A stretch of 64,000 bases of DNA from positions 2,480,001-2,544,000 of the forward strand of contig CP079859.1 of the NCBI GenBank assembly GCA_019339365.1, read 5' to 3'. Origin of the DNA: Vibrio neptunius. GTDB lineage: Bacteria; Pseudomonadota; Gammaproteobacteria; Enterobacterales; Vibrionaceae. A model generated the notes under the pieces. It was not told the DNA's origin and did no database searches. It saw only the letters and a list, made by a program, of their open reading frames with translations. The number at the start of each line of letters is the position of its first letter. The first letter of the stretch is position 1. Both the position numbers and the translations under genes were made by a program. Shown here one piece after another: positions 2,556 to 23,036 of the stretch.

Positions 2556-2870
2556 TAACATTCTTAACAACAGCCAATCTAGTTTTCTGTTTGCCTGATT
2601 TACCATTAACCTATCATAAGTAACTAAAAGTTAAAGTAAACATATCAAACTGTACATTCTTTCATCATATAAAAACGAGCGTGCGTGTTATCACTTATTA
2701 ACGATACGCGTTATCTTAGCAAGAATAGCGCTAATCCTATGAGTAACAATAACTTATTAAATCCTCTCTCTGCTAAACGAGACTGGACTGTCGGAAAAAC
2801 AAGCCACTTTTCATACTCAAACCGAATCTAACCCCAATACGCTGTATAAATGAAAAGAAAAAAGGCAACA
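2556..2870. promoter_or_regulatory. attI/PintI-like module a (integrase gene absent)
   Basis: About 315 bp sharing long stretches with the region directly upstream of the intI fragment at 21,744: CATAACATTCTTAACAACAG at the cassette side, AAAAACGAGCGTGCGTGTTATCA, GCGCTAATCCTATGAGTAAC, and ACAAGCCACTTTTCATACTC at the integrase side. An imperfect inverted pair (AACAGCCAATCTAGTTTTCT / AAAAACGAGCGTGCG) lies in the cassette half. A cassette starts directly at its GTTATG end. No intI reading frame follows on the plus strand. Calling it attI is an inference from module d. Confidence 0.6.
2842..2857 (+). promoter_or_regulatory. Decayed LexA-type box in module a
   Basis: CTGTATAAATGAAAAG occupies the same place as the perfect CTGT-N8-ACAG boxes of modules d and e, but its second half-site is AAAG instead of ACAG. 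Confidence 0.4.
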
Positions 2871-3012
2871 TAAATCAGTAAACTCATTGATAAGGTCGAA
2901 CTCTCTCTTGCGATGGCGGTGTTCGCCTTGAGAAAATCATCGAGGTAACCGTCCTTCTAAAGCAGATCGCACAATTTACTTATATAGACGCTCGGGCTTG
3001 TTCAACACTCGG

Positions 3013-3056
3013 GATTTAACGCTGGCTGCGCAGCGCCGAATCCTTGTTTGTTAGGT
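3013..3056 (-). repeat. Very short attC-like site (copy 3)
   Basis: ATTTAACGCTGGCTGCGCAG followed by CGCCGAATCCTTGTTTGTTA. Same layout as the copies at 932 and 2,044. The neighbouring gene to the right (RNA-binding protein) is on the opposite strand to usual cassettes. Confidence 0.5.
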
Positions 3057-3151
3057 ACAATTTTCAATACTGCGCCAAACCCCAAACTCTTCTTGGTTTA
3101 CTAGACCATACCTGAGACAATCAAGCCGCAAATTATACTAGGCAAAATATT

Positions 3152-3391
3152 ATGAAACTTTTAGTCCGCAATCTAGCGCGAACCACAACAGAACACGAAG
3201 TTCGAGTTCTATTCTCTGCTCACGGTACTGTTACACAATGTGATTTAGTTCTAGATCAGGAGACAGGACAATCTAAGGGATTCGCTTTCCTTGAAATGCC
3301 TGATGAGAACGAAGCTAAGGCTGCTTTAAACAGCTTAAACCTAACAAGCTTAGCCAAGAGCAAGATTCGAGTTAAGTTCGCTCAAAGCTAA
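3152..3391 (+). CDS. Small RRM-type RNA-binding protein
   Basis: The 79-residue protein is essentially one RNA recognition motif. RNP2 is KLLVRNL at residues 2-8 and RNP1 is KGFAFLEM near residues 42-49; both contain the aromatic or hydrophobic residues that stack on single-stranded RNA. Single-RRM proteins of this size occur in Vibrio, Shewanella and cyanobacteria and are often cold-induced RNA chaperones, but no target is known here. It is unusual in the array: it lies on the plus strand with its own downstream terminator, so it is expressed independently of the integron promoter. It is flanked by a short attC and a REP-like motif. Confidence 0.9.
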   Translation: MKLLVRNLARTTTEHEVRVLFSAHGTVTQCDLVLDQETGQSKGFAFLEMPDENEAKAALNSLNLTSLAKSKIRVKFAQS

Positions 3392-3399
3392 AACCAGAC

Positions 3400-3433
3400 A
3401 AAGGGGGCCCACTCAAAAAGGCTCCCTTTTCAA
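3400..3433 (+). terminator. Rho-independent terminator of the RRM gene
   Basis: AAGGGGGCC, a short loop, then GGCTCCCTTTT immediately after the stop. Confidence 0.75.
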
Positions 3434-3458
3434 TTATTCCGCCTTGTATCTAAAATCT

Positions 3459-3479
3459 AATTGGGACAGACACCTTAAG
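3459..3479. repeat. REP-like motif A
   Basis: AATTGGGACAGACACCTTAA directly joined to a truncated double-hairpin repeat. Confidence 0.65.
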
Positions 3480-3487
3480 GCATTTTT

Positions 3488-3526
3488 ATTGCCTATTGAC
3501 AGGCAGAAGGCTCATATGTGTTATGT
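3488..3526 (-). repeat. Truncated double-hairpin repeat
   Basis: Only the outer part survives (TTGCCTATTGACAGGCAGAA, then GGCTCATATGTGTTATG). It is cut on its left by motif A. Confidence 0.6.
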
Positions 3527-3686
3527 GCAATTGTCGTTTGTAATTCTCACATTGGTTACGGGCTTGCTACCATTAGCGATGATATCTACAGAAATCCACT
3601 TACCATTCGACAACCACTCACTTATTCCCACGCTATTACATATCTTAGCTGGCAACATTTTCCGAGAATTTCGAGTCAGGACATCT

Positions 3687-3917
3687 TTATTCGTATCGCT
3701 TAGATTCTACATTTGAGATATTTACTTGCAAAGAAATTACTTTTTCTTCAACCCTTATAGAAGTAACCTTTACTTTTCCATCTTCTCCGAACAATAGCCC
3801 CTGAAACTGCGACTTTAACTCTTCTAACTGCTGATTTTCCTTATAGCGTGGGTAGTATTCTCGACCTACGATGATAAGTGGCAACAAAAATAACAGATAC
3901 ATCTTAGACTTATTCAT
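3687..3917 (-). CDS. Small membrane-anchored hypothetical protein
   Basis: A 76-residue protein with one N-terminal hydrophobic segment (YLLFLLPLIIVG, residues 7-18) and a charged periplasmic-side tail including KENQQLEELKSQF, which could form a short coiled coil. No lipobox and no clear signal peptidase site, so a signal anchor is likelier. A Shine-Dalgarno GAGGG precedes the start. It begins at the GTTATG end of attI-like module b, so it occupies the first-cassette position. Family unknown. Confidence 0.6.
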   Translation of the reverse strand: MNKSKMYLLFLLPLIIVGREYYPRYKENQQLEELKSQFQGLLFGEDGKVKVTSIRVEEKVISLQVNISNVESKRYE

Positions 3918-3929
3918 TTATCCCTCTTG

Positions 3930-4078
3930 CACATAACATTCTTAACAACAGCTAATCTAGTTTTCTCTCTGCCTGATTTTTCATCAGCCCATAATAAGCC
4001 ACTGAAAATTAAAGCAAATGTATCAAACTGTACATTCTGTCATTGTATAAAAACGAGCGTGCGTGTTATCACTTTTAA
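3930..4078. promoter_or_regulatory. attI/PintI-like module b (half, truncated by motif A)
   Basis: Carries the cassette-side half of the module, from CATAACATTCTTAACAACAG to ACGAGCGTGCGTGTTATCAC, then breaks off into AAATCTAATTG and motif A. The integrase-side half with the LexA-type box is missing. Confidence 0.55.
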
Positions 4079-4090
4079 AAATCTAATTGA

Positions 4091-4124
4091 AAAAATCTAA
4101 TTGGACAGACACCTTAACAATCCC
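4091..4124. repeat. REP-like motif A at attI-like module breakpoint
   Basis: AAATCTAATTGGACAGACAC followed by CTTAACAATCC. One G is missing relative to the other copies. Confidence 0.65.
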
Positions 4125-4126
4125 AT

Positions 4127-4309
4127 AAGTGTCTAGTGACCCTATGCAAGTCATAGGCAGCGGCGAGACCGCAATAAGAGATCTTCAATATGTGTTTGTC
4201 GTAAGCCATGCTTAATGACCGAAATGACAAAGCGAAGTAGATAACTTTGTTGTTCGAAGAGCATTGGCTGCTCGCGCAGCCAATAGAATGTTATTACCTA
4301 TCGACAAAC
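4127..4309 (-). repeat. Double-hairpin repeat (longest copy)
   Basis: Contains TTGGCTGCTCGCGCAGCCAA (8-bp perfect stem) preceded by ATAACTTTGTTGTTCGAAGA and followed by TTATTACCTATCGACAA. It is joined on its right to motif B at 4,311. Other copies are near 7,616, 8,695, 9,620, 14,166 and 31,075. In most of them the outer end abuts a cassette stop codon on the minus strand, i.e. the attC position; this copy abuts no gene. Confidence 0.65.
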
Positions 4310-4310
4310 T

Positions 4311-4336
4311 AAATTCAGGACACACACCAAAAGACT
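4311..4336. repeat. REP-like motif B
   Basis: AAATTCAGGACACACACCAA directly abuts the interrupted end of the double-hairpin repeat. The next 200 bp up to 4,539 show nothing recognisable. Confidence 0.65.
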
Positions 4337-4539
4337 CACCTAACTCCAAGCCAAAAATGCCGAATAAAATGTATCACCTTGGTTATGTTTATGTGTGTTT
4401 AATAAAACTGAATACTCTTTCTTAAACTTCTTTGAAAGATATAGAAATAGCATTTACTTCCTCAATATAAACCTCTAGTTTCTTTTCGGATTAGATGACT
4501 AATTTGAAGTTATTCGATATACCTTAGGTGTGCCCCAAT

Positions 4540-5235
4540 TCACTTAGTTAGATCGACGTAATTTACAATAGCTCCATCTTTCACAATAAATAAATATGGA
4601 CTTATGCGAGCGTTTTTGTGCTCAGTCCATGAATTGATATGGTCGACAACAAACTTTTCAAACATTTCATCTGAAGAAGTCATAGAAATCGCTTTCAACA
4701 CTGTTCTAGTAGGGATTGATACAAAAAATTCATCTGCATTAATCTTAGCCTGTAAGTTTGTCATGTGTTTCTTAGAAAGAATAGTTTCACTAGCAAAAGG
4801 TCCCGGTTTTATTGCAACAACTTCACTATGGAAACCTTTTGGAAAGTAGTATTCAATTTCTAATTCTCGCAGATTCTTGAAAGCATGTTTTGTTGCGCTT
4901 TCAATATCAATCTTCGGCTCATCTGAACGGTTCAGAAAAAAGTATTGTTCAGGAGTATCAACCGCATACGCAATAACCAAGTCGGGATTCTCATCGGATC
5001 CGATAAAGTTCTGGTATACTGCTCCTATTTTCATCCCAATCCAGTTACCAGGTTTAATCATGGGATAGTAGTCTTTTTCTGATACACTAGTTAATAATCT
5101 ACCAACTTCTTCTTCCTGATATACCTTTACGTTATCTTTAATTTCTTGTGATACATCAGCGAATTTTGTCTCAGATTCATTAGCCGACACCACATTAGCT
5201 AACCCAAACAAAACCAAAAATAGATACTTTTTCAA
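4540..5235 (-). CDS. Exported DUF1444-like hypothetical protein
   Basis: A 231-residue protein with a clear signal peptide, MKKYLFLVLFGLANVVSA, cleaved before NES. The mature part contains VSIPTRTVLKAIS and ISPYLFIVKDGAIVNY, a layout like DUF1444 (YtpQ-like) proteins, which are normally cytoplasmic; the export signal is therefore unusual. I chose the TTG at 5,233-5,235 as start because AAGGG lies 9 nt upstream and the result is a canonical signal peptide; a TTG six bases further up is also possible. Surroundings are repeat remnants with no attC seen directly downstream. The family call is tentative. Confidence 0.6.
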   Translation of the reverse strand: MKKYLFLVLFGLANVVSANESETKFADVSQEIKDNVKVYQEEEVGRLLTSVSEKDYYPMIKPGNWIGMKIGAVYQNFIGSDENPDLVIAYAVDTPEQYFFLNRSDEPKIDIESATKHAFKNLRELEIEYYFPKGFHSEVVAIKPGPFASETILSKKHMTNLQAKINADEFFVSIPTRTVLKAISMTSSDEMFEKFVVDHINSWTEHKNARISPYLFIVKDGAIVNYVDLTK

Positions 5236-5378
5236 CGTCAATTACCCTTGTTATATTAATACGATTGCCAAAATGTAAAATTAAACTGTTAATAATATCA
5301 CCAAAGCAAATGAACTACAGTAATTTATCGCGTTAACTTGATGACAGGCTCATTTGTGCGAATCATAAACCCAGTAAG

Positions 5379-5428
5379 TTCAGGACACAGTAAATTCAGT
5401 AAATTCAGGACACACACCAAAAGACCAG
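5379..5428. repeat. REP-like motif B, partly tandem
   Basis: AGTTCAGGACACAG, then TAAATTCAG, then AAATTCAGGACACACACCAA. One full and two partial copies in a row. The IS110-type fragment starts right after. Confidence 0.65.
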
Positions 5429-5590
5429 TATTTAAGGCTACATATGAACGATTAGTTGCGGCAGGAAAACCGAAAAAGTGTCAATCGTTGCCTGCATGAG
5501 AAAGATGGTAGTAGTACTAAATTCAATGCTTAGGGACGGTGCTATGTGGGATAACAATAGCGCCAAAAATTAACTAATGACGCCATAGTA
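5429..5590 (+). pseudogene. IS110-family transposase, C-terminal remnant
   Basis: The translated fragment reads [12 protein letters not shown], then MVVVLNSMLRDGAMWDNNS and a stop. This matches the last ~45 residues of the IS110-family transposase found complete near 16,482-17,439 ([21 protein letters not shown]). The 5' part is cut off at motif B, and at least one frame change is present in the middle. The end TAACTAATGACGCCATAG and then CTTGTTAGC resembles the end of the longer copy. IS1111-attC elements of this family are known to insert in attC sites. Confidence 0.7.
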
Positions 5591-5936
5591 TCTTGTTAGC
5601 CCTTCAGCCAAAACTGCCACCACTTTTTGTTTTCACGATCATCCGATTTTTTTCCACTATTCCTTCGGGGCGTGGAAAAGGGTTCGAGGCAACTATTAAT
5701 GACAGAGTTATTAGATTAAATAGTTTATCTGATAGTTCTTCATATTCTTTATGGATTGCTGAATCACTTTATATCATTGATTCTGCTGACAACGATCATG
5801 ATTTGTATCTATCTCTAAAACTTGCCGTAAGTATCCCCAAATTTACCCGAGGTTAGTCCGCGAAAACAACCGGAGAATCATTCACTCTCATTAGATAAAC
5901 GAAAAACACTATCTATAGAATAGCAAGGGGCATAAC

Positions 5937-7388
5937 ATGGCGGGAGAAAAAATAGCAACAGCAGAAGCTGAGTTATTTGAAAAGCTTGAGTGGCAAGGTT
6001 TAAATATCAACATTCAGAAAAATTATCACCAGCGAGCCATTATAACGGCTCTAAATCAAAATATTCCCGAGATATTCGAGGCATTTACGACGCACAACAT
6101 CCTCAAATTACGTGCTGACTTCTCAAAACACATAAGTGAATGTGTTGTCGACTGTGTTGACGGCTCCCTCGCACAAATTCAACTTACCGATGCGACCAAG
6201 ACGGCAAAATTCGGTTGGTTTGTTGCTGAAACCTTACTAAAAGTTGCATTGAATATGGCAACACAAGCCGCTGGTGGCATTATCATAGATGGTTTGCATG
6301 ATGCGTTGGATACCCATGGGGCCTCACCCTTTGAAAGCAACAAACAAAATGTCAAAGTAAAAACATCAGATGGCCAAACAATCAATGTTATCGCACGAAG
6401 AGAGGCTGGTTACGGTCAGGCACTAAAAGAAATCAATCCCGAAATTTTTGGAAGGCAGTTAGCCAGCGATTTTACTGAGTTGGCGTTGAGTAAAGGGTAT
6501 GATGTCGTCGAGCAAGGCGTAACAGAGAAAATTGTTGGATGGGTCCAAGTTTCAAGGAATGGATGCAGAGTCACGGCTGGAAATTACGCCACTCTACTCG
6601 AAAGAGTATTGATGCCACTAGAAATTTTAAATCTCAGGTTAGACCTAGTTCAACGGCTCCTGAATGCCGTTGTCGCGGATGAGATCGAGGAGTACTTTAA
6701 GAACAATAGTACATCTCTGAATTCTCTTCCCTCGCAGGAAAGAGTTCAACAAGTCGTTGAGAGGTGTCGAGCGCGTATCCACCTATTGGGCATCCATGGT
6801 TACCTTACCCACCTAGCTAACCTCTCAGGCACTTACATTCCAAAACTATCAAAGGCATGGTTTCTAAAATCTGTTATCGCAGAAACCTTAACGCAAAATC
6901 GAACCAGCGTACTTAACAACAATCAGAACCTATCAACAGATCTCTGGAAGTTTTTGGTTACAAAAAAGCTCGTTGCGGTTCGTAAAAACATTCCGGATAG
7001 AGCTGTCGATAGCGTCTTTTCCGATTTCAATCACACCAGAACGTTTAACGAAGAAATGAGTAGTACTTATGAAAGTGCTAAGAAAAAAGACAAAACAAAA
7101 ATATACTACGAACAAGCCATTGCCACTTCTAGGCTCAGCGTAACCAACAGAGAGAAATTTGGAGAGTGCAGTACGTTAGCTACATTTCTTGCCTGTGAAT
7201 ACTTTCTTGACCACAAAGCCAGTGAGCAAAAGAAAATTATACGAGACACACAAAATGATTCGTCCTATCGAAATTACTGCTTATTTCTACCCGAATATGA
7301 AAAAGTGCAAAATGAAGTCTCTCGGTTAACTAAAAATTACGATCTTAATTTAAGCGTCGTTATATCAAGAGACTTACTCCCCAAATAG
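5937..7388 (+). CDS. Large orphan protein of unknown function
   Basis: A 483-residue soluble protein, the longest single-gene cargo in the cassette region and on the plus strand, against the cassettes. A strong AGGGG lies 6 nt before the ATG, and a terminator follows. No signal peptide. Residues ~95-125 (FGWFVAETLLKVALNMATQA and GGIIIDGLHDALD) form a hydrophobic or amphipathic stretch. The C-terminal third has EKFGECSTLATFLACEYFLDHK, which has an isolated Cys in a helix-start context, but I cannot assign a catalytic set. No family is recognised. It is flanked by IS110 debris on the left and a double-hairpin repeat on the right. A defence, toxin or effector role would be pure speculation. Confidence 0.7.
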   Translation: MAGEKIATAEAELFEKLEWQGLNINIQKNYHQRAIITALNQNIPEIFEAFTTHNILKLRADFSKHISECVVDCVDGSLAQIQLTDATKTAKFGWFVAETLLKVALNMATQAAGGIIIDGLHDALDTHGASPFESNKQNVKVKTSDGQTINVIARREAGYGQALKEINPEIFGRQLASDFTELALSKGYDVVEQGVTEKIVGWVQVSRNGCRVTAGNYATLLERVLMPLEILNLRLDLVQRLLNAVVADEIEEYFKNNSTSLNSLPSQERVQQVVERCRARIHLLGIHGYLTHLANLSGTYIPKLSKAWFLKSVIAETLTQNRTSVLNNNQNLSTDLWKFLVTKKLVAVRKNIPDRAVDSVFSDFNHTRTFNEEMSSTYESAKKKDKTKIYYEQAIATSRLSVTNREKFGECSTLATFLACEYFLDHKASEQKKIIRDTQNDSSYRNYCLFLPEYEKVQNEVSRLTKNYDLNLSVVISRDLLPK

Positions 7389-7424
7389 AACCAACAGATT
7401 AGCAGCATTTTTGCCGATTACAGA

Positions 7425-7453
7425 GCACCTTGCGAAATCAAGGTGCCATTATA
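7425..7453 (+). terminator. Stem-loop after the 483-residue gene
   Basis: GCACCTTG, CGAAAT loop, CAAGGTGC. The T-run after it is weak (CATTATAT), so termination is plausible rather than certain. Confidence 0.5.
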
Positions 7454-7615
7454 TCCCTTCCCGAAAAAGAGCCCTTTCAAAGACAGACTATAAGAAAAGC
7501 TTCAACCTGTCAGTTTCATCATTTCTCCTCCGCGCTCTAACTCTGAGAAATCAAAGATGAAGCCATGACACCAACACGCTACTTTGGCATCACTTTACTG
7601 CTTCTTCTCTAACGG

Positions 7616-7696
7616 TGTTGTTCGAAGAGCATTGGCTGATCACGCAGCCAATAGGATGTTATTGCCTATTGACAGGCAGAAGGCTCATATGTGTTA
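7616..7696 (-). repeat. Double-hairpin repeat after the LysE cassette
   Basis: GTGTTGTTCGAAGAGCATTG, the stem GGCTGATCACGCAGCC, then TTGCCTATTGACAGGCAGAA and CATATGTGTTAAGGC, where TTA is the stop codon of the LysE gene on the minus strand. Confidence 0.65.
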
Positions 7697-8329
7697 AGGC
7701 TTGAGACCGTCAGCTATAAATTTGCCACCTAATGATCCCATTATCAAACCTGAACCTTTGTTGATTATTAATTTAAACCGTAAGTAACTAGTTTGTGCTT
7801 TTGGACTTGATAGCAATATAGAAACTACAAAATACCACGAGAAATTTAAAACGAACACACCAACAACTAGTATTGAAGTTGTATAATCGGGAACGTTAAC
7901 AGGTAGCATCGCTGCAAACACACTGCTAAACACAATTGCAGTTTTGGGATTGCTCAATTGCGTCGTTAATCCTAAAGCTACAGCCTTAATATGAGCAGGT
8001 TTGCTCGACAGTTCTGAGTCAGTATAAGTCACGCTGTTTTTGCCCACCCGCCACATCTGCAAACCTAGATAGCAGAGATACAAACCACCAAGCACTTTGA
8101 AGGCCACATAAAGCTTGGGTACTGACTGAAAAAGTGTAATGAGCCCGATTGATGCAATGAAAGCGAATGTAGTTGCACCTAGAGCTAAGCCAATAGCGAT
8201 GCAGATAGCTTCAATTCGAGACTTTGCCATTGCCGTTTGCGCAACCAAAATAAACGATGGTCCCGGCGTCATCGCTCCGAATAGTAATAGGGTGGCTATT
8301 GGGAGTAGAAATAAGTATTGCTCCGCCAT
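7694..8329 (-). CDS. LysE/RhtB-family amino acid exporter (cassette)
   Basis: A 211-residue inner-membrane protein with about six hydrophobic segments. It carries the N-terminal signature GAMTPGPSFILVAQTA, typical of LysE/RhtB exporters (TPGP motif), and LGGLYLCYLGLQMWR in segment 3. QLSNPKTAIVFSSVFAAMLP near residues 124-143 matches the conserved NPK motif. This family exports amino acids or related small molecules with the proton gradient; the substrate is not predictable. AAGGAGA lies upstream of the ATG. A copy of the last ~130 bp of this gene is found fused to another cassette at 14,922-15,050. A second, chromosomal LysE-type gene lies at 28,737. Confidence 0.9.
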   Translation of the reverse strand: MAEQYLFLLPIATLLLFGAMTPGPSFILVAQTAMAKSRIEAICIAIGLALGATTFAFIASIGLITLFQSVPKLYVAFKVLGGLYLCYLGLQMWRVGKNSVTYTDSELSSKPAHIKAVALGLTTQLSNPKTAIVFSSVFAAMLPVNVPDYTTSILVVGVFVLNFSWYFVVSILLSSPKAQTSYLRFKLIINKGSGLIMGSLGGKFIADGLKP

Positions 8330-8370
8330 CTATAGTAATCTCCTTTCTGGCTAGTGCCATGAGCCCTAAC

Positions 8371-8660
8371 GAGCCTGTAGGATTTCTTCCTTACTCGTTC
8401 TTAATTCTGATCTTACCTATATTTCATCATGATATGAACTTGAACGCATCAACACCTTATGATCTAATCTAAATTATTCGTCATGAGACACGGTTATGCC
8501 CAACTTCAAAACCGATTACTCGAACCAAAACATGTTTGTCCCTGTCATCATCGATGAGCAACTCATCCCTGGCACTATCGCGTATGCGATAGCCCATATC
8601 GTCGATAATCACCTCGACCTATCACCTTTTGATGTCCACTATTGCAATGACCAAAATGGA
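8371..8660 (+). mobile_element. IS1182-family element, truncated left end (copy A)
   Basis: Begins with the terminal repeat GAGCCTGTAGGATTTCTTCC directly after CTAAC, and contains the first ~50 codons of the transposase (MPNFKTDYSNQNMFVPVII). It then stops at CCAAAATGGA, where motif A follows. The full elements at 11,618 and 18,386 continue past this point. A nearly identical truncated copy is at 9,297. Confidence 0.9.
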
Positions 8661-8694
8661 AATCCAATTGGGACGGACACCTTAACAATCCGTG
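8661..8694. repeat. REP-like motif A at IS1182 breakpoint
   Basis: AATCCAATTGGGACGGACAC followed by CTTAACAATCC. Shares a G variant (ACGGAC) with the copy at 9,587. Confidence 0.7.
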
Positions 8695-8812
8695 CTTGAT
8701 GGCCGAAATGACAAAGCGAAGTAGATAACTTTGTTGTTCGAAGAGCATTGGCTGCTCACGCAGCCAACAGGATGTTATTGCCTATTGACAGGCAGAAGGC
8801 TCATATGTGTTA
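8695..8812 (-). repeat. Double-hairpin repeat
   Basis: GTGCTTGATGGCCGAAATGA through the stem TTGGCTGCTCACGCAGCCAA to CATATGTGTTAG. The outer end abuts the stop region of the 8,822-9,274 gene. Confidence 0.65.
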
Positions 8813-8821
8813 GAAGTTTGC

Positions 8822-9274
8822 TCACCTAGTGCTCCGACTTTCCCTTTTCGCGTCATGTGGGAAACAGTTTGTATACGCACGAGCGACATGACTTTTGCCA
8901 TTATCATCTATGACTACACAAACGAGATTGCACGGATTTCCCAATGCACTCCGCCAATTGTGATGACGCTCCTCATATTCTGCTTCAAATTCAACGTAAA
9001 TGTATGCTGAGCGAACCCATTCAAACGGAATTGAATGTTTTACAAGCAACCCTTTAAACATCTTTGAATAGCGTTCAGTCATGAGGTCAAAGTGCAGGTA
9101 ATATGGAGCAATCTGTTGGGAGCAAAGGTCTATTGAAACACACTTGCTTTGAAGGTGGTCTACGGACAGGTAAAGCTTACCGATACCCCAATAACCTTCA
9201 ACATCATTGTTTCTACTCCGAAACGAGCCAATAATACCGCTTGCAATACTACCTAGTTCTCTCCTGCGTCCCAT
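8822..9274 (-). CDS. Hypothetical cassette protein
   Basis: A 150-residue protein, soluble, with no signal peptide. The N-terminus MGRRRELGSIASGIIGSF, followed by SRNNDVEGYWGIGKLY, has the look of a conserved cassette family, and a basic C-terminus ends CFPHDAKRESRSTR. No enzyme motif was recognised. AGGAA precedes the ATG. On both sides the gene is bounded by the same composite of an IS1182 stub plus double-hairpin repeat, so it sits in the slot of one cassette. Function unknown. Confidence 0.7.
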   Translation of the reverse strand: MGRRRELGSIASGIIGSFRSRNNDVEGYWGIGKLYLSVDHLQSKCVSIDLCSQQIAPYYLHFDLMTERYSKMFKGLLVKHSIPFEWVRSAYIYVEFEAEYEERHHNWRSALGNPCNLVCVVIDDNGKSHVARAYTNCFPHDAKRESRSTR

Positions 9275-9296
9275 ATTTATTCCTAAAACTTCTAAC

Positions 9297-9586
9297 GAGC
9301 CTGTAGGATTTCTTCCTTACTCGTTCCCTATTCTGATCTTACCTATATTTCATCATGATATGAACTTGAACGCATCAACACCTTATGATCTAATCTAAAT
9401 TATTCGTCATGAGACACGGTTATGCCCAACTTCAAAACCGATTACTCGAACCAGAACATGTTTGTCCCTGTCATCATCGATGAGCAACTCATCCCTGGCA
9501 CTATCGCGTATGCGATAGCCCATATCGTCGATAATCACCTCGACCTATCACCTTTTGATGTCCACTATTGCAATGACCAAAATGGA
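9297..9586 (+). mobile_element. IS1182-family element, truncated left end (copy B)
   Basis: Same 290-bp left end as copy A, again immediately after CTAAC, with the same truncation point at AAAATGGA followed by motif A. Only a few bases differ from copy A, so the truncated form was duplicated after the deletion occurred. Confidence 0.9.
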
Positions 9587-9619
9587 AATCCAATTGGGAC
9601 GGACACCTTAACAATCCGT
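9587..9619. repeat. REP-like motif A at IS1182 breakpoint
   Basis: Identical to the copy at 8,661, including the ACGGAC variant. Confidence 0.7.
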
Positions 9620-9739
9620 GCTTGATGGCCGAAATGACAAAGCGAAGTAGATAACTTTGTTGTTCGAAGAGCATTGGCTGCTCGCGCAGCCAACAGGATG
9701 TTATTGCCTATTGACAGGCAGAAGGCTCATATGTGTTAT
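9620..9739 (-). repeat. Double-hairpin repeat
   Basis: Same as the 8,695 copy except for CTCGCG in place of CTCACG in the loop. Ends at CATATGTGTTATAAG next to the following cassette gene. Confidence 0.65.
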
Positions 9740-9745
9740 AAGTAT

Positions 9746-10919: not shown

Positions 10920-11042
10920 AACGCCGCGTTAAGTGGTGAGCTACGCCGACCACCCTACCTAAACCATCGTGACATAAACACTTAACCCAAAGTAAGTCGA
11001 AAATGCCAAGCGTTGGGAATCCGTCTTAAACGCTTGTTAGGT
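10920..11042 (-). repeat. attC site (VCR-like)
   Basis: AACGCCGCGTTAAGTGG at the left; CCAAGCGTTGGGAATCCGTC then TTAAACGCTTGTTAGGTGC at the right. Closely related to the site at 20,817. Confidence 0.85.
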
Positions 11043-13564: not shown

Positions 13565-13891
13565 CTATTTGTGTTCACTTTTACAGAAATTCACATGTTC
13601 GGAACAGGGCAACCATTTTGTTTTGTTAACTTCTAGATGAATAGTTGAGTTTCGGTCTTGTGACCATCTTTCACCATTATTGCAGTGAATCGTTAATTGA
13701 TGATGTAACGAAACAATATTTACGTGATTTGTTTTATAGGGATTTTCCCATTTATTACCTACTTGAAACTTATTGTTTTCGATGAAACAAAGTTGTCCAC
13801 CTGTTTCTACAGACTTTGCATATTTCACATTTGGATCACTAGAGCAACCAACTAAGAACAGAACTGCAAGAAACGAATATTTTATCTTCAT
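13565..13891 (-). CDS. Small lipoprotein cassette (copy 1)
   Basis: A 108-residue lipoprotein: MKIKYSFLAVLFLVGCSSDP has a classic lipobox LVGC. The mature part contains three Cys (LCFIENN, IHCNNGERW, LPCSEHVNFCKSEH), so disulphides in the periplasm are likely. I start at 13,891 because this gives a clean signal peptide; an in-frame ATG 30 bases upstream would add MLWAKSRLSG. It is the first cassette beside attI-like module c. An identical protein is encoded at 15,791-16,117 with nearly the same attC, so the cassette was duplicated. Family unknown. Confidence 0.8.
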   Translation of the reverse strand: MKIKYSFLAVLFLVGCSSDPNVKYAKSVETGGQLCFIENNKFQVGNKWENPYKTNHVNIVSLHHQLTIHCNNGERWSQDRNSTIHLEVNKTKWLPCSEHVNFCKSEHK

Positions 13892-13922
13892 ACCAGATAA
13901 CCTACTTTTTGCCCAAAGCACA

Positions 13923-14165
13923 TAACATTCTTAATAACAGGCAGTCTCGTTTTTGTCTCTACCTGACTTTTTATCAACTTACCATAACTCATTAAAAACT
14001 ATCGAATATACGTCATATTGCACACCCTACCATCACATAAAAACGAGACTGCGCGTTATCATTTTTTAACAATGCGCGTTATCTTAGCAAGAGTAGCGCT
14101 AATCCTATGATTAATAGCTTACTAATCTTCTCTCTACGAAACGAGACTGGACTGTCGGAAAAACA
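13923..14165. promoter_or_regulatory. attI/PintI-like module c (integrase side truncated)
   Basis: Runs from CATAACATTCTTAATAACAG through AAAAACGAGACTGCGCGTTA to CGAGACTGGACTGTCGGAAA, then breaks into a double-hairpin repeat. The first 170 bp are nearly identical to module d at 21,426. The LexA-type box region and intI are missing. Confidence 0.6.
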
Positions 14166-14332
14166 TGCCAGACCGCAATAAGAGCTCCTCAATATGTGTT
14201 TGTCGTAAGCCATGCTTAATGACCGAAATGACAAAGCGAAGTAGATAACTTTGTTGTTCGAAGAGCATTGGCTGCTCACGCAGCCAACAGGATGTTATTG
14301 CCTATTGACAGGCAGAAGGCTCATATGTGTTA
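14166..14332 (-). repeat. Double-hairpin repeat
   Basis: AGACCGCAATAAGAGCTCCT to CATATGTGTTAGGC. On the minus strand the adjoining cassette ends GCCTAACACATATG, where GCCTAAC fits RYYYAAC, the expected outer half-site of an attC. Confidence 0.65.
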
Positions 14333-15643: not shown

Positions 15644-15661
15644 GAATTTTTCCTTGTAGTG

Positions 15662-15786
15662 CTAACGCCCGCTTAAGTGGTGAGCAACGCAATACCGATG
15701 TTGCTGCAAACCACCTTAGTCACTAAATTCAACGCATAGTGCAAATGCCACGCGTTGTGAATCCCTCTTAAGCAGTTTGTTATGTG
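15662..15786 (-). repeat. attC site (VCR-like)
   Basis: TAACGCCCGCTTAAGTGGTG at the left and GCCACGCGTTGTGAATCCCT then CTTAAGCAGTTTGTTATGTG at the right. Nearly the same as the site at 13,438. Confidence 0.9.
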
Positions 15787-15790
15787 CGTG

Positions 15791-16117: not shown

Positions 16118-16147
16118 ACCAGATAACCTACTTTTTGCCCAAAGCAC

Positions 16148-16268
16148 ATAACGCCCGCTTAAGTGGTGAGCAACGCAATACGGTGTTTCCGCATACCACC
16201 TTAATCACTAAAATCAACGCATAGTAAAAATGCCACGCGTTGCGAATCCGTCTTGAAGCGTTTGTATG
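16148..16268 (-). repeat. attC site (VCR-like)
   Basis: TAACGCCCGCTTAAGTGGTG at the left; GCCACGCGTTGCGAATCCGT then CTTGAAGCGTTTGTATGG at the right. The outer half-site reads CCATAC where ACATAAC is usual, which also removes the stop codon that cassettes normally take from it. Confidence 0.8.
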
Positions 16269-16415
16269 GATAATATCTCCATCTCAACGACAAGTTTCGG
16301 GTAATGTGAGACCCAGGCTTTAGCTGCAACTAAAGCTTTCCATGTAGTAGTTCGTTTAAACGCTGGCTCCTCTGTTGAGAGACCGATAACAAACATGAAC
16401 ACTACATAGGACTCC
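16269..16415 (-). pseudogene. Fragment of a cassette gene displaced by the IS110 element
   Basis: On the minus strand an open frame reads LSTEEPAFKRTTTWKALVAA then KAWVSHYPKLVVEMEILSIQ and continues into the attC without a stop. No ribosome-binding site is seen at the only ATG. It is most likely the 3' part of a cassette gene whose 5' part was lost when the IS110-type element inserted. Confidence 0.4.
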
Positions 16416-16481
16416 AAGCATAAACCTCGAATAGTCGACTGGGTCTCGAACCCGCATTACGCAAGCAAGAGTTAGCTTATT

Positions 16482-17439
<958 letters not shown>

Positions 17440-17467
17440 TTATTGACGCAATAGTCGTTTGTTAGTT

Positions 17468-18365
17468 TCATTTTTCAAGCACAAGACATTGATACTGGGC
17501 TATTTTATTTAAATCTGCTGTATATTGCGGAAACTCAGATTGTAACAAACACAGAGCATCAGCAAATGTAATTTGATGCAAATTTGACGTGTAATCAAAG
17601 ATTAAGCTATTTATACGTGATTCAAACGATTCTCTACCCGATTCAGCCTTGCATTGCTCCCACATGACTTGGTCGATTTCATCTTCAGGGTCTTCCAAAG
17701 GGCTATTAGCCTGAACATATAGGTTTGACAACATCGCTTCATACTGTGGTGTTGATAACTGCTCTTTACAACGCAATAGCCAAGCCAAAGTGATCAAGTT
17801 GTGTCCAAAGAAACCAAACTGTTCAATACAAGATGATAATACATCTGAGAGACTGGTCTTTACTGGCGCTGGGGTCGACTTAACCTTATCTATATTTGAA
17901 AACGTAGACGTAACGAACTCTGTAAAACGATTGAGAAAGGCTGGAATCTGATGTTCACTCAAATGTCTGTAGACACTATTCATTGCAAGCAATATCGTCA
18001 CATTATGGGATAGGTATTCGTTAGCAGATGCTGCTTTGGTAGCAAAATGACGAAAAATTTCCTCAAAACCTTTGTTTTGATGCCACTGAAAAGTAGCTTG
18101 ATAAGCTACAGGATAAATACCACTATTCAGTATTCTTTGAATACGAAAGTCTTGTAATGCAGGTGCTTGAACAGATTCCTCATATGTTGGATGCACCGAC
18201 ACTGAATCATTACCCATCAAAATAGATGTATGAGAAAAAAAGTTTGTTATTTTCACCAAAACGTTCAGCAAGGTAATTTGCAGACAAAAATGCTTTCAAC
18301 GCATGAGGTTGATGAATTATTGCCCCACTATGTAAAGCTTGTTCTAACAATTCCGAATTGTTCAT
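17468..18365 (-). pseudogene. Hypothetical cassette gene, frameshift in a T-run
   Basis: The true start is the ATG at 18,363-18,365, preceded by GGAGG, giving MNNSELLEQALHSGAIIHQP and HALKAFLSANYLAERFGENN. The frame is then lost in a run of seven T (minus strand, 18,235-18,241); with six T it continues LFSHTSILMGNDSVSV and runs to the stop at 17,468, for about 298 residues. The long C-terminal part is helical (e.g. FGHNLITLAWLLRCKEQL) with an acidic loop EDPEDEIDQVMWEQ. Domain unknown. The frameshift may be a sequencing error or phase variation. Followed by the IS110-type element. Confidence 0.65.
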
Positions 18366-18385
18366 ATGTCCTCCATGAAACTAAC

Positions 18386-20205
18386 GAGCCTGTAGGATTT
18401 CTTCCTTACTCGTTCTTAATTCTGATCTTACCTATATTTCATCATGATATGAACTTGAACGCATCAACACCTTATGATCTAATCTAAATTATTCGTCATG
18501 AGACACGGTTATGCCCAACTTCAAAACCGATTACTCGAACCAAAACATGTTTGTCCCTGTCATCATCGATGAGCAACTCATCCCTGGCACTATCGAGTAT
18601 GCGATAGCCCATATCGTCGATAATCACCTCGACCTATCACCTTTTGATGTCCACTATTGCAATGACCAAAACGGAGCGGCCGCCTATCCGCCTTCCATCA
18701 TGCTCAAGGTTATCTTTTATGCCTATTCTCTCGGCATGCTATCCAGTCGACGCATTGAAAAAGCTTGTATCAACAATGTCACTTTCATGTGTCTATCTGG
18801 CGATGTCAGACCACACTTCACCACCATCGCTGCCTTCATCGCTAAAATGAAAGACACCATTGAACCACTCTTTACTCAAGTCTTGATGATATGTGATGAA
18901 CAAGGTCTTATCGGGCGTAACATGTTTGCCATTGATGGATGTAAAATATCCTCCAATGCCAGTAAAGAATGGAGTGGCACACACGAGGAACTCCAACGCA
19001 AAAAGAGAAACTAGAGCGTGCGAGTCGCCGCATTATCGAACGCCATCAAAATCAAGACGCCCTACCTAACGAGGTGCTCGCACAAGACTTAAGACAAAAA
19101 CAAAAGCTCGATAACAGCGCCAATAAAATAGGTACATTTCTCGCAAGTACTTACGACAAGTTAGGCTCTAATAACAAGCCCATAAAAAGCAACATAACTG
19201 ACAACGATAGTGCAAAAATGACTACCTCGAAGGGCACGATTCAAGGCTATAACGGCATTGCTATCACTGATGACAAACACCAAATTATTTTGTACAGCCA
19301 AGTATGGGGCAGTGTCGGTGAGCAGCAAACGCTCAAACCTGCGGTACTCGCTTTAAACGAACAGATGGACAAACTGCCGAATTCTGCCGAGCACACGATC
19401 AAGTTCACGGCTGACAGTGGCTTTCATAGCAAAGCCAATCTCAAGTTCTTGGCGGGCACTCCGTACGATTGTTACATCGCTGACACGGCATTTCGCAGCC
19501 GCAATCCACTCTTTCAAAGCAGTGAAACCTACCAAACCGAGCAAGCAAAGAAACGTAAGAAGCGGTCCAAAACAGGCAAAACCTGTTATCCCATTGCCAT
19601 GTTCGAGTTTGACCAAGATGCGATGACTTGCCGATGTCCCGCTGGGAAGATGATGCGCCTTAGCAGCAAAATTGCCGTAATACGTGGAGAGCGAGGCGCT
19701 CAGTTTTGTGGCTACCTCAACGACTGTCGACAGTGCATTCACCAATCTCAGTGTATGAGGAAGCCTCCCGGTAAACAGCAAGGCCGACAAGTCTTCTTTA
19801 TCTACAAAAACACCAAAGACTTTGACCATATGCAAGCGATGAAAAGCAAAATTGATAGCCCAGAAGGAAGGCGGCAATACAGTAAGCGCCTTGGGTGTGT
19901 TGAACCCGTTTTCGGCAATATCACCGTTAATAAACAGATGAATCGATTCACTCTGAGAGGTAAAGAGAAAGTCAACGCACAATGGGCGATGTTTAGCTTG
20001 CTTCACAACATAGAAAAGCTGAGAAATTACATTCATTAGAGGGGGAAACCCCTCTAAAACCTGCCAGAACCAGCAACGACGCCTATACCTTAAATTATCA
20101 CCGTAAGCACCAATATCACGGCTCAGTATTTAAGCCAATTTAGACAGGGAAAGTTGTCGAAAAATCAGGTGAAATTGGAGAAAAACCAAGAAATTCTACA
20201 GCCTC
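18386..20205 (+). mobile_element. IS1182-family insertion sequence, full length (copy 2)
   Basis: 1,820 bp with the same terminal repeats as copy 1, left flank CTAAC, right flank AACGCCCTG (start of the attC at 20,206). As in copy 1, the insertion is exactly at the attC core. Confidence 0.95.
18511..20039 (+). pseudogene. IS1182-family transposase, a different single-base frameshift
   Basis: Same protein as copy 1 but broken elsewhere: CAACGCAAAAAG (near 18,997) lacks one C relative to CAACGCCAAAAAG in copy 1, while the four-A run missing a base in copy 1 is intact here. The two copies therefore carry complementary lesions about 60 bp apart, and together define one intact ancestral frame. 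As written the N-terminal frame ends at EELQRKKRN. Confidence 0.9.
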
Positions 20206-20330
20206 AACGCCCTGTTAAGGTGTGAGCAACGCAATACCGAAGCTGCCGCATACCGCCTTAAACACTAAACGCAACGCATAGTAAAACTGGCACGCGTTGC
20301 GAATCACTCTTGAATTGCTTGTTATGTACG
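20206..20330 (-). repeat. attC site (VCR-like)
   Basis: AACGCCCTGTTAAGGTGTGA at the left; GGCACGCGTTGCGAATCACT then CTTGAATTGCTTGTTATGTA at the right. Confidence 0.9.
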
Positions 20331-20801
20331 CGCTTCAATGTATTGGCTTAATATTTCAATTTGCTGTTCGTGTAAAGTTAGCAAAGGACTGATTAACATA
20401 GCCTCTTTACCGCCTTTTTTAAGTGACAATAGAACTATTTTTGGATCACTATATAAATTAAGGAAAGGAAGACCGACGGCTTCGAAGTAGAGCTTCAATC
20501 TACGTGCAGAACCTACAGCATCGTCATACGAAGCCACAGGAAAGCGTCGTTGACCAACACCCTCTATGTTTCCAAGCTCAGCCCCACCAATTATCAACTT
20601 CTTCCTTTTATCCAAAAATTCAACTGCAACATCAGCTGTTACATCAAAATCTGACACATGATTAATACAACTGATATGCAAATACCAATTGCAATTACCA
20701 GACTTTAACTTAAAAGTGCGCTGTGATTTAACATACTTCCACTCAGGAAGAAGAGAACACAGCTCAGTCAGAAATACTTCCTGTAGTTCAGAAACTTTCA
20801 T
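20322..20801 (-). CDS. Hypothetical cassette protein (possibly DUF4304-like)
   Basis: A 159-residue soluble protein starting MKVSELQEVFLTELCSLLPE after GAGGGG. WKYVKSQRTFKLKSGNCNWY followed by LHISCINHVSDFDVTADVAV gives the helix-then-antiparallel-strand layout seen in DUF4304-type proteins (a domain found in immunity proteins and cassettes); this is only a resemblance. The C-terminus is basic and helical. The stop lies in the attC. Function unknown. Confidence 0.65.
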   Translation of the reverse strand: MKVSELQEVFLTELCSLLPEWKYVKSQRTFKLKSGNCNWYLHISCINHVSDFDVTADVAVEFLDKRKKLIIGGAELGNIEGVGQRRFPVASYDDAVGSARRLKLYFEAVGLPFLNLYSDPKIVLLSLKKGGKEAMLISPLLTLHEQQIEILSQYIEART

Positions 20802-20816
20802 ATCCCCTCAAGTACA

Positions 20817-20942
20817 TAACGCCGCGTTAAGTGGTGAGCAACGCTACCACCCTACCTAAACCATTGTGCTGTAAACACTAAATTCAAAGCAAACCGAAAA
20901 TGCCAAGCGTTGGGAATCCGTCTTAAACGCTTTGTTAGCTGC
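20817..20942 (-). repeat. attC site (VCR-like)
   Basis: TAACGCCGCGTTAAGTGGTG at the left; GCCAAGCGTTGGGAATCCGT then CTTAAACGCTTTGTTAGCTG at the right. Confidence 0.9.
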
Positions 20943-21405
20943 GTAGCTTTTTGGAGAGCAGGTTCTGTTTTGATTCGAATCCGGCGCTAGTATAAAAACC
21001 GATAGCTCCTGTGTTATTTGACCAAACATGCAGGTCAACTGAACTAGCGCCAAGAGCACTAGCCCACTTAGAAAAGTAAGAAACTAGCCCTGTAGCTATA
21101 CCCAACTTTCGAGCTTCGCTAGAAACGATTAACTCTTCAATATATCCATACGTTCGTGATTGCGTCCAACGACGCTCTTTAACGTCAGTGAGATTCCCCA
21201 ATAAAGCTCCGACTACCTTTCCATCGTGCTCGCTAACAATAAGCAACTGATTTTCATCAGATAGAATGTCTTGAAGCTCAGTCTCATTTAGTACATCTTC
21301 AGTTTTGCGAACAACATCTGGGGCTAAGTCTGAGTTGTGCTCGTTCTCAGCAATGAAAAGGCTAACCAACACATCTAAATCTTTGATTTGGGCTACACGA
21401 ACCAT
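20935..21405 (-). CDS. GNAT family N-acetyltransferase cassette
   Basis: A 156-residue GNAT protein. MVRVAQIKDLDVLVSLFIAE starts the fold, IEELIVSSEARKLGIATGLV is the acetyl-CoA binding loop (RKLGIA), and DLHVWSNNTGAIGFYTSAGF is the typical final motif. Start at 21,405 with GGAGAAG upstream. It is the first cassette beside attI-like module d, the one that still carries an intI fragment, so it would have been the most recently inserted and best-expressed cassette of that platform. Substrate unknown. Confidence 0.85.
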   Translation of the reverse strand: MVRVAQIKDLDVLVSLFIAENEHNSDLAPDVVRKTEDVLNETELQDILSDENQLLIVSEHDGKVVGALLGNLTDVKERRWTQSRTYGYIEELIVSSEARKLGIATGLVSYFSKWASALGASSVDLHVWSNNTGAIGFYTSAGFESKQNLLSKKLRS

Positions 21406-21425
21406 AAATCTTCTCCAAGCAGCTA

Positions 21426-21743
21426 ACATTCTTAATAACAGGCAGTCTCGTTTTTGTCTCTACCTGACTTTTTATCAACTTACCATAACTCATTAAAAAC
21501 TATCGAATATACGTCATATTGCACACCCTACCATCACATAAAAACGAGACTGCGCGTTATCATTTTTTAACAATGCGCGTTATACCAGGAAGGGTGAGTG
21601 CCAATCCTTTGATTAACAATAACTTATTTAATCTTCTATTGACAATAGCGAGACTGAACTCTCAACAAAACAAGCCATTTTTCATACTCAAACCGAACTC
21701 AAACCCAATAAACTGTGTAAATACACAGTTATGGAGCGTAAAG
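21426..21743. promoter_or_regulatory. attI/PintI region (module d) upstream of the intI fragment
   Basis: 318 bp between the first cassette (minus strand) and intI (plus strand), the classical position of attI, the cassette promoter and the integrase promoter. Cassette end is GTTAGC on the minus strand. An inverted pair (AACAGGCAGTCTCGTTTTT / AAAAACGAGACTGCGCGTT) lies in the cassette half; the intI half has a LexA-type box. The other four modules were recognised by similarity to this one. Confidence 0.75.
21713..21728 (+). promoter_or_regulatory. LexA-type box before the intI fragment
   Basis: CTGTGTAAATACACAG fits CTGT-N8-ACAG exactly and lies 15 bp before the intI ATG. SOS control of integron integrases by LexA is established in Vibrio. 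Confidence 0.8.
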
Positions 21744-21968
21744 ATGGCAAGCAAATTTTTAGAAGAAATTCGACGACATATGCGAATGCGGGGATACAGT
21801 CTCAAAACAGAAAAGGCTTACTTATATTGGATCAAATACTTTATTCGCTTCAACAAACTAAAACATCCAAAAGATATGGGCGAAAATGAAGTAACGAGTT
21901 TTCTTTCTTATCTTGCCAACGAGCAGTACGTAGCAATCAACACTCAAAAAGTAGCGCTCAAAATCTAA
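21744..21968 (+). pseudogene. intI: Integron integrase, N-terminal remnant
   Basis: About 73 codons of a tyrosine recombinase SAM-like (core-binding) domain: MASKFLEEIRRHMRMRGYSL, KTEKAYLYWIKYFIRFNKLK, HPKDMGENEVTSFLSYLAN, TQKVAL. The HxxxHP-like block and the ending TQKVAL are typical of IntI. The catalytic domain (RHRRY) is missing: after TQKVAL the frame runs into motif A and stops. GGAG precedes the ATG. The wording (MRGYSLKTEKAYLYWIKYFI) seems closer to non-canonical integrases than to the usual Vibrio IntIA, but I cannot test this here. The gene reads away from the cassettes, as expected. Confidence 0.9.
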
Positions 21969-22020
21969 TTGGGACAGACACCTTAACAATCCATAAATTC
22001 AGGACACACACCAAAAGACC
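21966..22020. repeat. REP-like motifs A and B side by side at the intI breakpoint
   Basis: AATTGGGACAGACACCTTAA, CAATCCAT, then AAATTCAGGACACACACCAA and AAGACCC. The only place where both motifs stand together. Confidence 0.75.
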
Positions 22021-22031
22021 CAATTATCTTG

Positions 22032-22697
22032 TTAGCTGCGATGGTTAAAGCTACCCTTATGAACGCCATCACAAAGCACCTTTAGCCAAACAAAATACTC
22101 GTCCATCGAAGGATCTAGCTCCAAGCTTTCGTCTTTTCCTTTCTCATACGAAATCAACGTTAAAGTTCCGGAGTTAGGCTTAAGTTTTACGTAGCGAATA
22201 TCAAACTTAATCGACTCATCTACCTTTCCAGGTAGCCATTCAAGATCCACTGGAAACTGGTAGATAAATTTATCGGTTGCGGCTAAAAACAACTCAACTA
22301 CATCAATGAAGTCTTCAGTTTCAGATTCCGTAGGAATGTAATACTCATGTTCAACAGCATTGCGAACAGTATTTAATTTTTTAAGGATCCTCGGAGTAAC
22401 AACTCCACACTTTTCACAAAACCCTAAATAAGCGTGAAAATTAGGAAAGCCACGCTTCTGTTGAACAAAACCTAATGACTTAGCAATGGTTTCAACTTGT
22501 AAATGCAACGCGCGTTTCGCATTGGATAGTGCGTTTACTAAGGTTCGACTTTGCTTTTCTTCACTCGAGGACTCGAAGTCTTCAATGGCAAAGTCTAAAT
22601 ATACTCATGGAGTCGTCTCCACCGGATAGGAAACCTTATCCCAACCTGAGGAAAAATGGGGGTCAAAATCATCGTAATTAGATGGTAAAGGTATCAC
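22032..22697 (-). pseudogene. HEPN-like cassette protein with in-frame TGA
   Basis: From a GTG at 22,695-22,697 (AGGAG 8 nt upstream) the frame reads MIPLPSNYDDFDPHFSSGWD, then KVSYPVETTP, a TGA at 22,605-22,607, then VYLDFAIEDFESSSEEKQS, RTLVNALSNAKRALHLQVE. The part after the stop contains LNTVRNAVEHEYYIP, where RNAVEH fits the R-x4-6-H motif of HEPN ribonuclease domains. No frame change occurs, so this looks like a nonsense mutation (or a base error). An internal TTG at 22,508 could give a shorter 158-residue product. It is the first cassette beside module e; its stop lies in a GTTAGC core. HEPN proteins often act as toxins or RNases; no antitoxin is seen. Confidence 0.65.
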
Positions 22698-22730
22698 TCT
22701 GATGTCTCCTGTGTGTTGTAGCGGCTAACA

Positions 22731-23036
22731 TTCCTAATAACAGGCAGTCTCGTTTTTCTCTATGCCTAATTTACCATCAGCCTATAGTAAACCACTAAAA
22801 ATTAAAGTAAATGTATCAAACTATACATTCTGTCATTGTGTAAAAACGAGCGTGCGTGTTATCACTTTTTAACCATGCGCGTTATCTTAGCAAGAATAGC
22901 GCTAATCCTATGGCTAACAATAACTTATAAAATCTTCTCTCTGCTAAACGAGACTAAACTGTCGGAAAACAAGCCACTTTTCATGCTCAAACCGAGTCTA
23001 ACCCCAATAAGCTGTTTCAATGAACAGAAATAGGAG
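22731..23036. promoter_or_regulatory. attI/PintI-like module e (outermost; integrase gene replaced)
   Basis: Full module from CTAACATTCCTAATAACAGG through AAAAACGAGCGTGCGTGTTA to AAGCCACTTTTCATGCTC, with a perfect LexA-type box and AGGAG-ATG at 23,033-23,040. The frame after that ATG ends in 7 codons (MKIASE). Beyond it the array stops; the giant adhesin gene begins 260 bp further right on the plus strand. The bases 23,041-23,277 show nothing else recognisable. Confidence 0.65.
23012..23027 (+). promoter_or_regulatory. LexA-type box in module e
   Basis: CTGTTTCAATGAACAG fits CTGT-N8-ACAG exactly, at the same place as in module d, although no integrase gene follows. Confidence 0.7.

Follow-up and report, generated by a model that had tools for sequence, protein, structure and literature searches.

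Dispersed attI/PintI modules in Vibrio neptunius as probable remnants of a mobile integron platform

Chromosomal integrons have been characterized as sedentary, and the route by which they become mobile is an open question. Among the closest described systems are the deltaattI-type cassettes, in which the place of the cassette's attC is taken by part of attI, as much as 244 nt in the case of attI2; 96 and 14 cases are given for 1,685 and 57 integrons, respectively, and IntI1 excised and inserted such cassettes in that study (PMC12901181). The superintegrons of Vibrio contain gene-less promoter cassettes that are short, lie upstream of coding cassettes, and have shown promoter activity (PMC11014356). 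Cassettes and attC sites without an integrase are also found scattered in genomes and are referred to as clusters of attC sites lacking integron integrases (CALINs) or single attC sites lacking integron integrases (SALINs), both being defined by attC alone (PMC9229058). The locus considered here is a 64,000-nt stretch of Vibrio neptunius DNA (contig CP079859.1, positions 2,480,001 to 2,544,000), referred to as the window, in which five attI/PintI-like modules lie in one array. With a probability of roughly 0.7, these modules are the attI/PintI ends of a dispersing mobile integron platform of an IntI2-like clade, fossilised in this host.

Attachment-site modules in the window and the host genome

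Self-BLAST of the window yields five copies of one block, all on the plus strand, with pairwise identities of 71–89% and E ≤ 2.9e-15 for every pair. Module 1, an attI/PintI module of 305 bp (2556..2860), keeps the attI edge, is 87% identical to module 5, and holds a degenerate LexA-type box at 2842-2857. The attI module 2 (3934..4079; 146 bp) is truncated on the right, where a GGACAGACACC junction sequence comes next, and the attI module 3 (13923..14170; 248 bp) is fused at its right end to an attC-like repeat of a second type. Module 4 (attI/PintI, 21424..21743; 320 bp) is complete as far as the start of intI and is 91% identical to a copy in V. salinus, while module 5 (attI/PintI, 22726..23036; 311 bp), the right-most found in the window, also retains a remnant of the intI start. 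Modules 4 and 5 each have, ahead of this start, a motif that we take to be a LexA-type box, located at 21713..21728 on the plus strand (CTGTGTAAATACACAG) and at 23012-23027, respectively.

The attI sites of integrons are recognized by their position directly upstream of a divergent intI. Module 4 abuts a stump of intI, and the same block precedes intI in four species (V. salinus, V. chagasii, V. halioticoli, and V. fortis), with whose pre-intI DNA all five modules are collinear in the alignment. The stump (21744..21962, plus strand) is an N-terminal piece of about 73 codons that ends at a GGGACAGACACC junction sequence. It covers positions 1-69 of the 315 in TIGR02249, scores 76.6 bits against a cut-off of 265, and is 88% identical at the amino acid level to V. 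chagasii intI over residues 1-73. Over 59 residues, a second scrap of intI, on host contig C2 near 1,180,300, matches this clade better (66%) than it does the ordinary Vibrio IntI (44%). An intact intI beside the array, as in a functional sedentary chromosomal integron, is absent from the host genome.

The host genome comprises 5.36 Mb in two contigs, and the counts that follow are lower bounds, as the module search scored 40 of 52 candidates. There are 38 BLAST intervals at E ≤ 0.05 in the fetched host regions, three of which are short minus-strand matches (modules 3 and 4 contain two of them, and the third falls on a short fragment). Of the other 35, 27 have the attI edge, and eight are without it; an edge was regarded as kept if, counting from TAAC, it matched at least 16 of the 19 positions of TAACATTCTTAATAACAGG (a single base is altered in a few). 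The edge-keeping copies, four of which are only 33-52 bp long, are grouped in several clusters on both contigs. Their left edges lie at the crossover, whereas their right edges range from 33 to >300 bp, so that 27 edges share a fixed crossover (GTT) beside neighbours that are mostly different.

Some truncated forms recur. A unit of ~203 bp occurs at C2:115182, 1211202, and 1212889 (87-94% identity), and one of ~125 bp is found in two settings, C2:1220974 versus 1210419 and 1209630 (94-96%); in both cases the flanks are unrelated. These units run from the crossover to TTAAC (TTAAT in the pair 1209630/1210419), with an attI fragment replacing attC at the 3′ edge, as in deltaattI-type cassettes. 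A longer unit of ~1.17 kb is present at C2:1207654 and 1218782 (88.8%), although it does not end at a cassette core on the far side. About 1 kb to the right of the attI part, the latter two loci have a common 1-kb stretch with broken open reading frames (ORFs), and this stretch, attached to the attI remnants, holds a piece that resembles a tRNA arm by eye.

Neighbours were also compared with those in a second strain of the same species (G020, a draft in 170 contigs), by testing the 27 edges against the six G020 stretches with module matches. Eight left junctions are common to both strains (C2:1224793, 1219428, 1218782, 89955, 91064, 98886, 101605, and 115182). The right junction is also common in five of these, with 1224793 compared over the first 171 of its 310 bases only. 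In the remaining three the right neighbour has changed, and the alignments stop one base after TAAC (91064, 115182) or GTTA (98886); a random array position falls within 2 bases of a TAAC/GTTA word in 4.4% of draws. Since units recur and neighbours change beside TAAC/GTTA, the truncated attI units may have moved between neighbours and, to judge from sequence comparison, would behave like deltaattI-type cassettes.

A first-pass annotation of the window had proposed five same-orientation attI/PintI-like modules in one array, all without a working integrase. Self-BLAST and the alignment with pre-intI DNA bear out the modules, and the window retains of the integrase the stump and the remnant of the intI start in module 5, with nothing above the TIGR02249 cut-off genome-wide. 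The alignment that the annotation had called for gives collinear regions in which the TAAC/GTTA left edge is identical in all five and the right edges are unlike. Its count of five is correct for the window, the genome total being larger (at least 27 edge-keeping copies). It had also placed a cassette at the GTTA end of every module, which holds for four of the five: a minus-strand ORF of at least 60 codons starts 2-19 nt from those edges, by a window rule that has no control of its own, and module 5 (at 22731) has no such ORF within 150 nt of its edge.

The parent platform in related vibrios

A scan of a genome collection with the intI stump retained 80 of 131 loci, including loci in V. halioticoli, V. 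chagasii, V. tubiashii, V. salinus, and V. fortis. When 24 genomes of the genus were searched with the V. chagasii protein, ten had a match at E 1e-20 and 14 had none. In two of the ten, G031 and G084, the match was only 44-45%, and one further match of 43% in G106 was taken as the ordinary Vibrio integrase. The block itself has copies in 38 of 196 genomes of the genus, in a search that scored three candidates per genome and from which no copy numbers were taken; a second search, of 12 genomes, scored all candidates and supplied the G020 module matches.

Full-length, stop-free copies of the platform were found in G106 (taken to be V. chagasii LC2-408), which has two, and in G163 (taken to be V. 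gangliei), which has three. These intact copies have a common block from -319/-325 (the crossover) to +1072/+1089 around the intI ATG, 98.4-99.9% identical, and in one V. gangliei pair it reaches +1187. The block contains intI and no other recombinase ORF, and neither a transposase nor transposon ends. Outside of it the flanks differ, with two exceptions, some of the left cassettes and a stretch on the right in V. chagasii. The latter is a common 1.35 kb (93.8%) that adjoins one V. chagasii copy and lies ~2.25 kb further in the other, and it carries a phage-type integrase gene (PF00589 and PF24624) that may belong to an island; this gene is at 9513-10544 in L046 and in the corresponding stretch to the right of intI in L045. 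No such gene was seen by eye in the V. gangliei right flanks examined, the third of which was seen in part. Two of the V. gangliei copies reside on plasmid pVgang (NZ_AP021871.1 25032-26015 and 47478-48461, locus L261), where they adjoin resistance cassettes (arr, dfrA15, aadA13; qnrVC7, fos), and an IS256-family transposase gene lies beside one of them.

The parent is a two-ended unit that extends from the attI crossover to ...TTTGGGGCA just past intI, and many modules of relatives end at ...TTTGGGGCA with intI deleted in between. In 15 of 54 modules, representing 13 genomes, a strict right-end motif (9-base patterns) lies at a distance of 240-620 bp from the edge; reversed and reverse-complement control patterns each gave 0. 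A GGGGC end at full-unit length occurs in a further eight of the 54, which include two modules of the host genome and count one V. halioticoli locus twice (L043 and L260). A variant end was seen by eye in eight more loci, bringing the total to ~20 genomes. One deletion form is common to several internally deleted copies (e.g., L143, L145, L150, L151, and L173); L145 and L185 (G018) agree in their left flank, both being copies of a single larger stretch. The flanks by the right end have a loose common motif, (T/C)GAG(T/C)T(T/A)AG. Directly after GGGGC, the sequence in L043 and in L136 of G031 resembles what we presume to be the start of a group IIC intron.

The right end also occurs apart from the platform. 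In V. chagasii, CTAAACACA(C/T)TTTGGGGCA is exact six times, two on the platform and four elsewhere; three of the latter are units with part of the ordinary Vibrio integron attI (L205, L216, and L226, which end at TTTGGGGCA) and one has no recognised attI. A genome-wide search for the end pattern was above control in V. chagasii and G123 and near control in most of 11 genomes, with a fixed spacing that missed some known ends. In six of 24 loci (L230-L253), different GGGGCA-ended units stand at the 3′ end of one gene of the small multidrug resistance (SMR) efflux type, identified by eye, making this a possible hot spot. None of the 24 offers a clean empty site at that gene, and the 18 beyond the GGGGCA units are of mixed structure. 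A full attC hairpin at the right end was considered and rejected: three of four single folds gave z-scores of -0.6 to 0.2, and the fourth was strong mainly through a neighbouring hairpin.

The modules also have a cassette context. In relatives, an ORF starts at the edge in 20 of 51 cases, versus a mean of 3.7 and a highest draw of 8 at random, and an attC in cassette orientation was recognised in the left flank in 22 of 53 cases, as opposed to 0 of 53 for the reverse orientation.

Weighing the explanations

In the mechanism that we propose, a genome would have acquired platforms at several sites, with a separate set of cassettes behind each. The near-identical copies in V. chagasii and V. gangliei show that one genome can hold several platforms; as for their way of moving, a platform would be transferred as a whole by way of attI at one end and its right end at the other. 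Copies would then lose intI through internal deletion or erosion, with the attI edge remaining. The remnants in the host would be deltaattI units, the best-defined of which are bounded by the attI crossover and a cassette-type core, and they may have been copied and reshuffled in the manner of cassettes (several are gene-less), in exchanges probably catalyzed by an integrase now lost or supplied from outside. Each remnant may offer the adjoining cassette a landing site and a promoter. The cassette part of this mechanism has precedent because IntI1 moved deltaattI-type cassettes in another system (PMC12901181). No precedent for movement of the platform by way of attI and the right end was found in the portions of the open-licence literature examined.

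Several results weigh against this interpretation. There is no integron integrase above the TIGR02249 cut-off in the whole host genome, nor does G020 have an intI match at a threshold of E 1e-20. Beyond the eight common left junctions, 19 edges, the five window modules among them, have no counterpart in the G020 stretches, which could be because contigs are missing from the draft. The TTTGGGGCA end was not found at any host module, as a search allowing one mismatch, with a spacing that misses some known ends, gave two sites, neither of them at a module. With respect to the exchange of neighbours, the 115182 junction can alternatively be read with an 8-bp repeat that places the change 7 bases further, 98886 joins a short stretch of attI to the end of an IS110-like remnant and is not a plain attI unit, and the pair C2:1209630/1210419 is an ordinary local duplication. 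Some left cassettes are common to the V. chagasii copies, as are some to two of the V. gangliei copies, and the V. chagasii pair may have travelled within a larger island. A covarying hairpin at the right end was not upheld, as the mean stem of 4.2 versus 4.05 was reached by 322 of 2000 permutations (397 of 2000 in the same arm permutation test with near-duplicates collapsed). In the host, the stricter ORF-start test gave a weak result (seven of 27 edges versus a mean of 3.3, the highest of 200 random draws being 9). No attC was recognised in 31 of the 53 left flanks. Finally, a promoter scan against shuffles put modules 4-5 below expectation (2 versus 4.2) and modules 1-2 above it (9 versus 4.9).

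The strongest competing explanation is that the platform owes its movement to a different recombinase or to a larger mobile island, with recognition of the TTTGGGGCA end, and that IntI only trades cassettes at attI. We rate its chances at somewhat under even, and it overlaps with the preferred explanation, which leaves the choice of recombinase open. It would account for a right end that is fixed in many species, for the exact V. chagasii end found six times with four of these away from the platform, for the different units at the 3′ end of one SMR-type gene in six of 24 loci, and for the phage-type integrase gene to the right of both V. chagasii copies. It fits less well with a common block in which intI is the sole recombinase ORF, with V. 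gangliei right flanks that, as far as they were seen, have no phage-type integrase gene, and with two ends that have no common inverted repeat.

A more specific version of platform movement would make the attI-intI platform, between the attI crossover and a TTTGGGGCA end, a transposable unit copied to new sites by its own IntI, together with internally deleted, non-autonomous copies. In that case, the deleted copies would seed single-cassette loci and promoter cassettes on Vibrio chromosomes and plasmids, and could even carry the attI of the ordinary Vibrio integron. We hold this whole set of propositions only tentatively, with the odds leaning against it as a joint claim; the likeness to an insertion sequence (IS) and its miniature derivatives is allowed by the data and not proved.

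It is improbable that the modules are a fossil row, in which platforms were joined by homologous or IS-driven rearrangement and decayed in place, their pieces never having moved as units. Consistent with such a row are the IS elements and truncated IS ends in the array, the short junction sequences at many right ends, and the one plain local duplication (C2:1209630/1210419). However, identical truncated units stand between different neighbours, the neighbour change falls beside TAAC/GTTA in all three discordant strain junctions (with the caveats given for 115182 and 98886), and 27 edges are kept at the crossover. An unrelated dispersed repeat that resembles attI by chance might explain why copies occur on each of the two contigs and in 38 of the 196 genomes searched, but is effectively refuted by the alignment of the block with the pre-intI region of four named species, in addition to the attC orientation of 22 to 0 and the 20 of 51 edge ORFs versus a mean of 3.7 in relatives.

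The first-pass annotation had framed the choice as one between fossil platforms and a mobile unit carrying attI, and each alternative holds in part. The former captures the origin of the modules as the attI end of an attI-intI platform, several of which are intact in two relatives; the latter fits the truncated copies, with their recurring 125- and 203-bp units and three changed right neighbours. The multiple copies that it suggested looking for in other Vibrio genomes include intact platforms, two in V. chagasii and three in V. gangliei. It had further reasoned that a repeat which fails to act as a recombination site and occurs widely away from cassettes would be an unrelated one. The comparison, made in part, found that the repeat is indeed widespread, with an attC of cassette orientation in 22 of 53 left flanks versus 0 of 53 for the opposite, and none in 31.

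Neighbouring features and comparison with known systems

The window cassettes lie to the left of the modules and are read leftwards, and the VCR-like attC sites picked out have the matching orientation. The ORFs and attC sites listed next are on the minus strand. Cassette ORFs begin at module 1 (2083..2577, GNAT), module 3 (13565..13921, no Pfam match), and module 4 (20935..21429, GNAT). Another ORF, located between modules 4 and 5 (22032..22508, no Pfam match), starts >200 nt from the module 5 edge. VCR-like attC sites are found at 10951..11037 (partial), 15663..15767, 16149..16265, and 20817..20939, the last being that of the cassette beside module 4. The site at 16149..16265 has an IS110-family element (16279-17462) at its end, and several cassettes elsewhere have apparently kept only the 3′ end of such an element. 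An Rfam search of the window gave nothing at gathering scores.

Short junction sequences border many truncated units on the right. One copy of AATCTAATTGGGACAGACACC, followed by TTAAC, lies at 21962..21982 on the plus strand, and further window copies occur at 2009, 3454, 8661, and 9587 (0-2 mismatches). The genome has 32 such places (≤2 mismatches), all within array regions. A Y1 transposase was considered as the source of the GGACAGACACC junction sequences and set aside, as the genome has no PF01797 match. A second short junction sequence, AATTCAGGACACACACC, occurs at 888, 4318, 5408, and 22002 in the window and in 45 places in the genome (≤1 mismatch); near 1217600 on C2, one copy has an inverted partner, in the manner of a tiny inverted-repeat element. 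The second type of attC-like repeat (TTAACAATCCGTGC...GGATGTTATTGCC) is seen at 8660-8813 and 9586-9740, with a self-BLAST depth of ~18 in the fetched regions and a fold z-score of -2.5. Just to the right of module 5 is a very long ORF of 1699 aa (23278-28377), apparently with internal repeats, as suggested by regular antisense ORFs.

No description of dispersed attI modules with a fixed right end was found among the titles and abstract starts listed from the open-licence literature. If the proposed interpretation is correct, a platform of which one genome has several near-identical copies, whether chromosomal or on a plasmid with resistance cassettes alongside, exemplifies in nature the transition from sedentary to mobile integron. 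The nearest named class, among the 25 plasmid matches listed, is that of the class 2 integrons (plasmid intI2, 61% amino acid identity). Class 2 integrons sit in Tn7-type transposons, whereas no such transposon was seen in the flanks read here (wider flanks were not searched by family). The attI cores are similar, reading AATAAAATG^TT in class 2 (PMC12901181) and TTAAGAATG^TTA here.

The remnants resemble miniature inverted-repeat transposable elements (MITEs) in being short, internally deleted copies of a longer unit. They differ in that terminal inverted repeats are lacking (TAACATTCTTAA at one end versus ...TTTGGGGCA at the other, with no common inverted repeat), and in that the longer unit encodes an integron integrase. 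With deltaattI cassettes the likeness is an attI fragment where attC is expected; the differences are that this host has at least 27 edges in one chromosomal genome, several gene-less units, another attI, and no intact integrase.

Some gene-less promoter cassettes and orphan cassettes could have a concrete origin in the remnants, and the literature passages seen on such cassettes name no source of this kind. In comparison with the gene-less promoter cassettes of Vibrio superintegrons, the origin is visible here in the form of attI/PintI remnants, and the promoter role is putative, being predicted from motif matches. The window would itself be classed as a CALIN, having at least two VCR-like attC sites and no integrase nearby or intact intI in the genome. 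It is set apart from CALINs and SALINs as described by the attI remnant that marks one edge, and if our interpretation is correct, attI remnants are to be expected at the orphan cassettes of other lineages as well.

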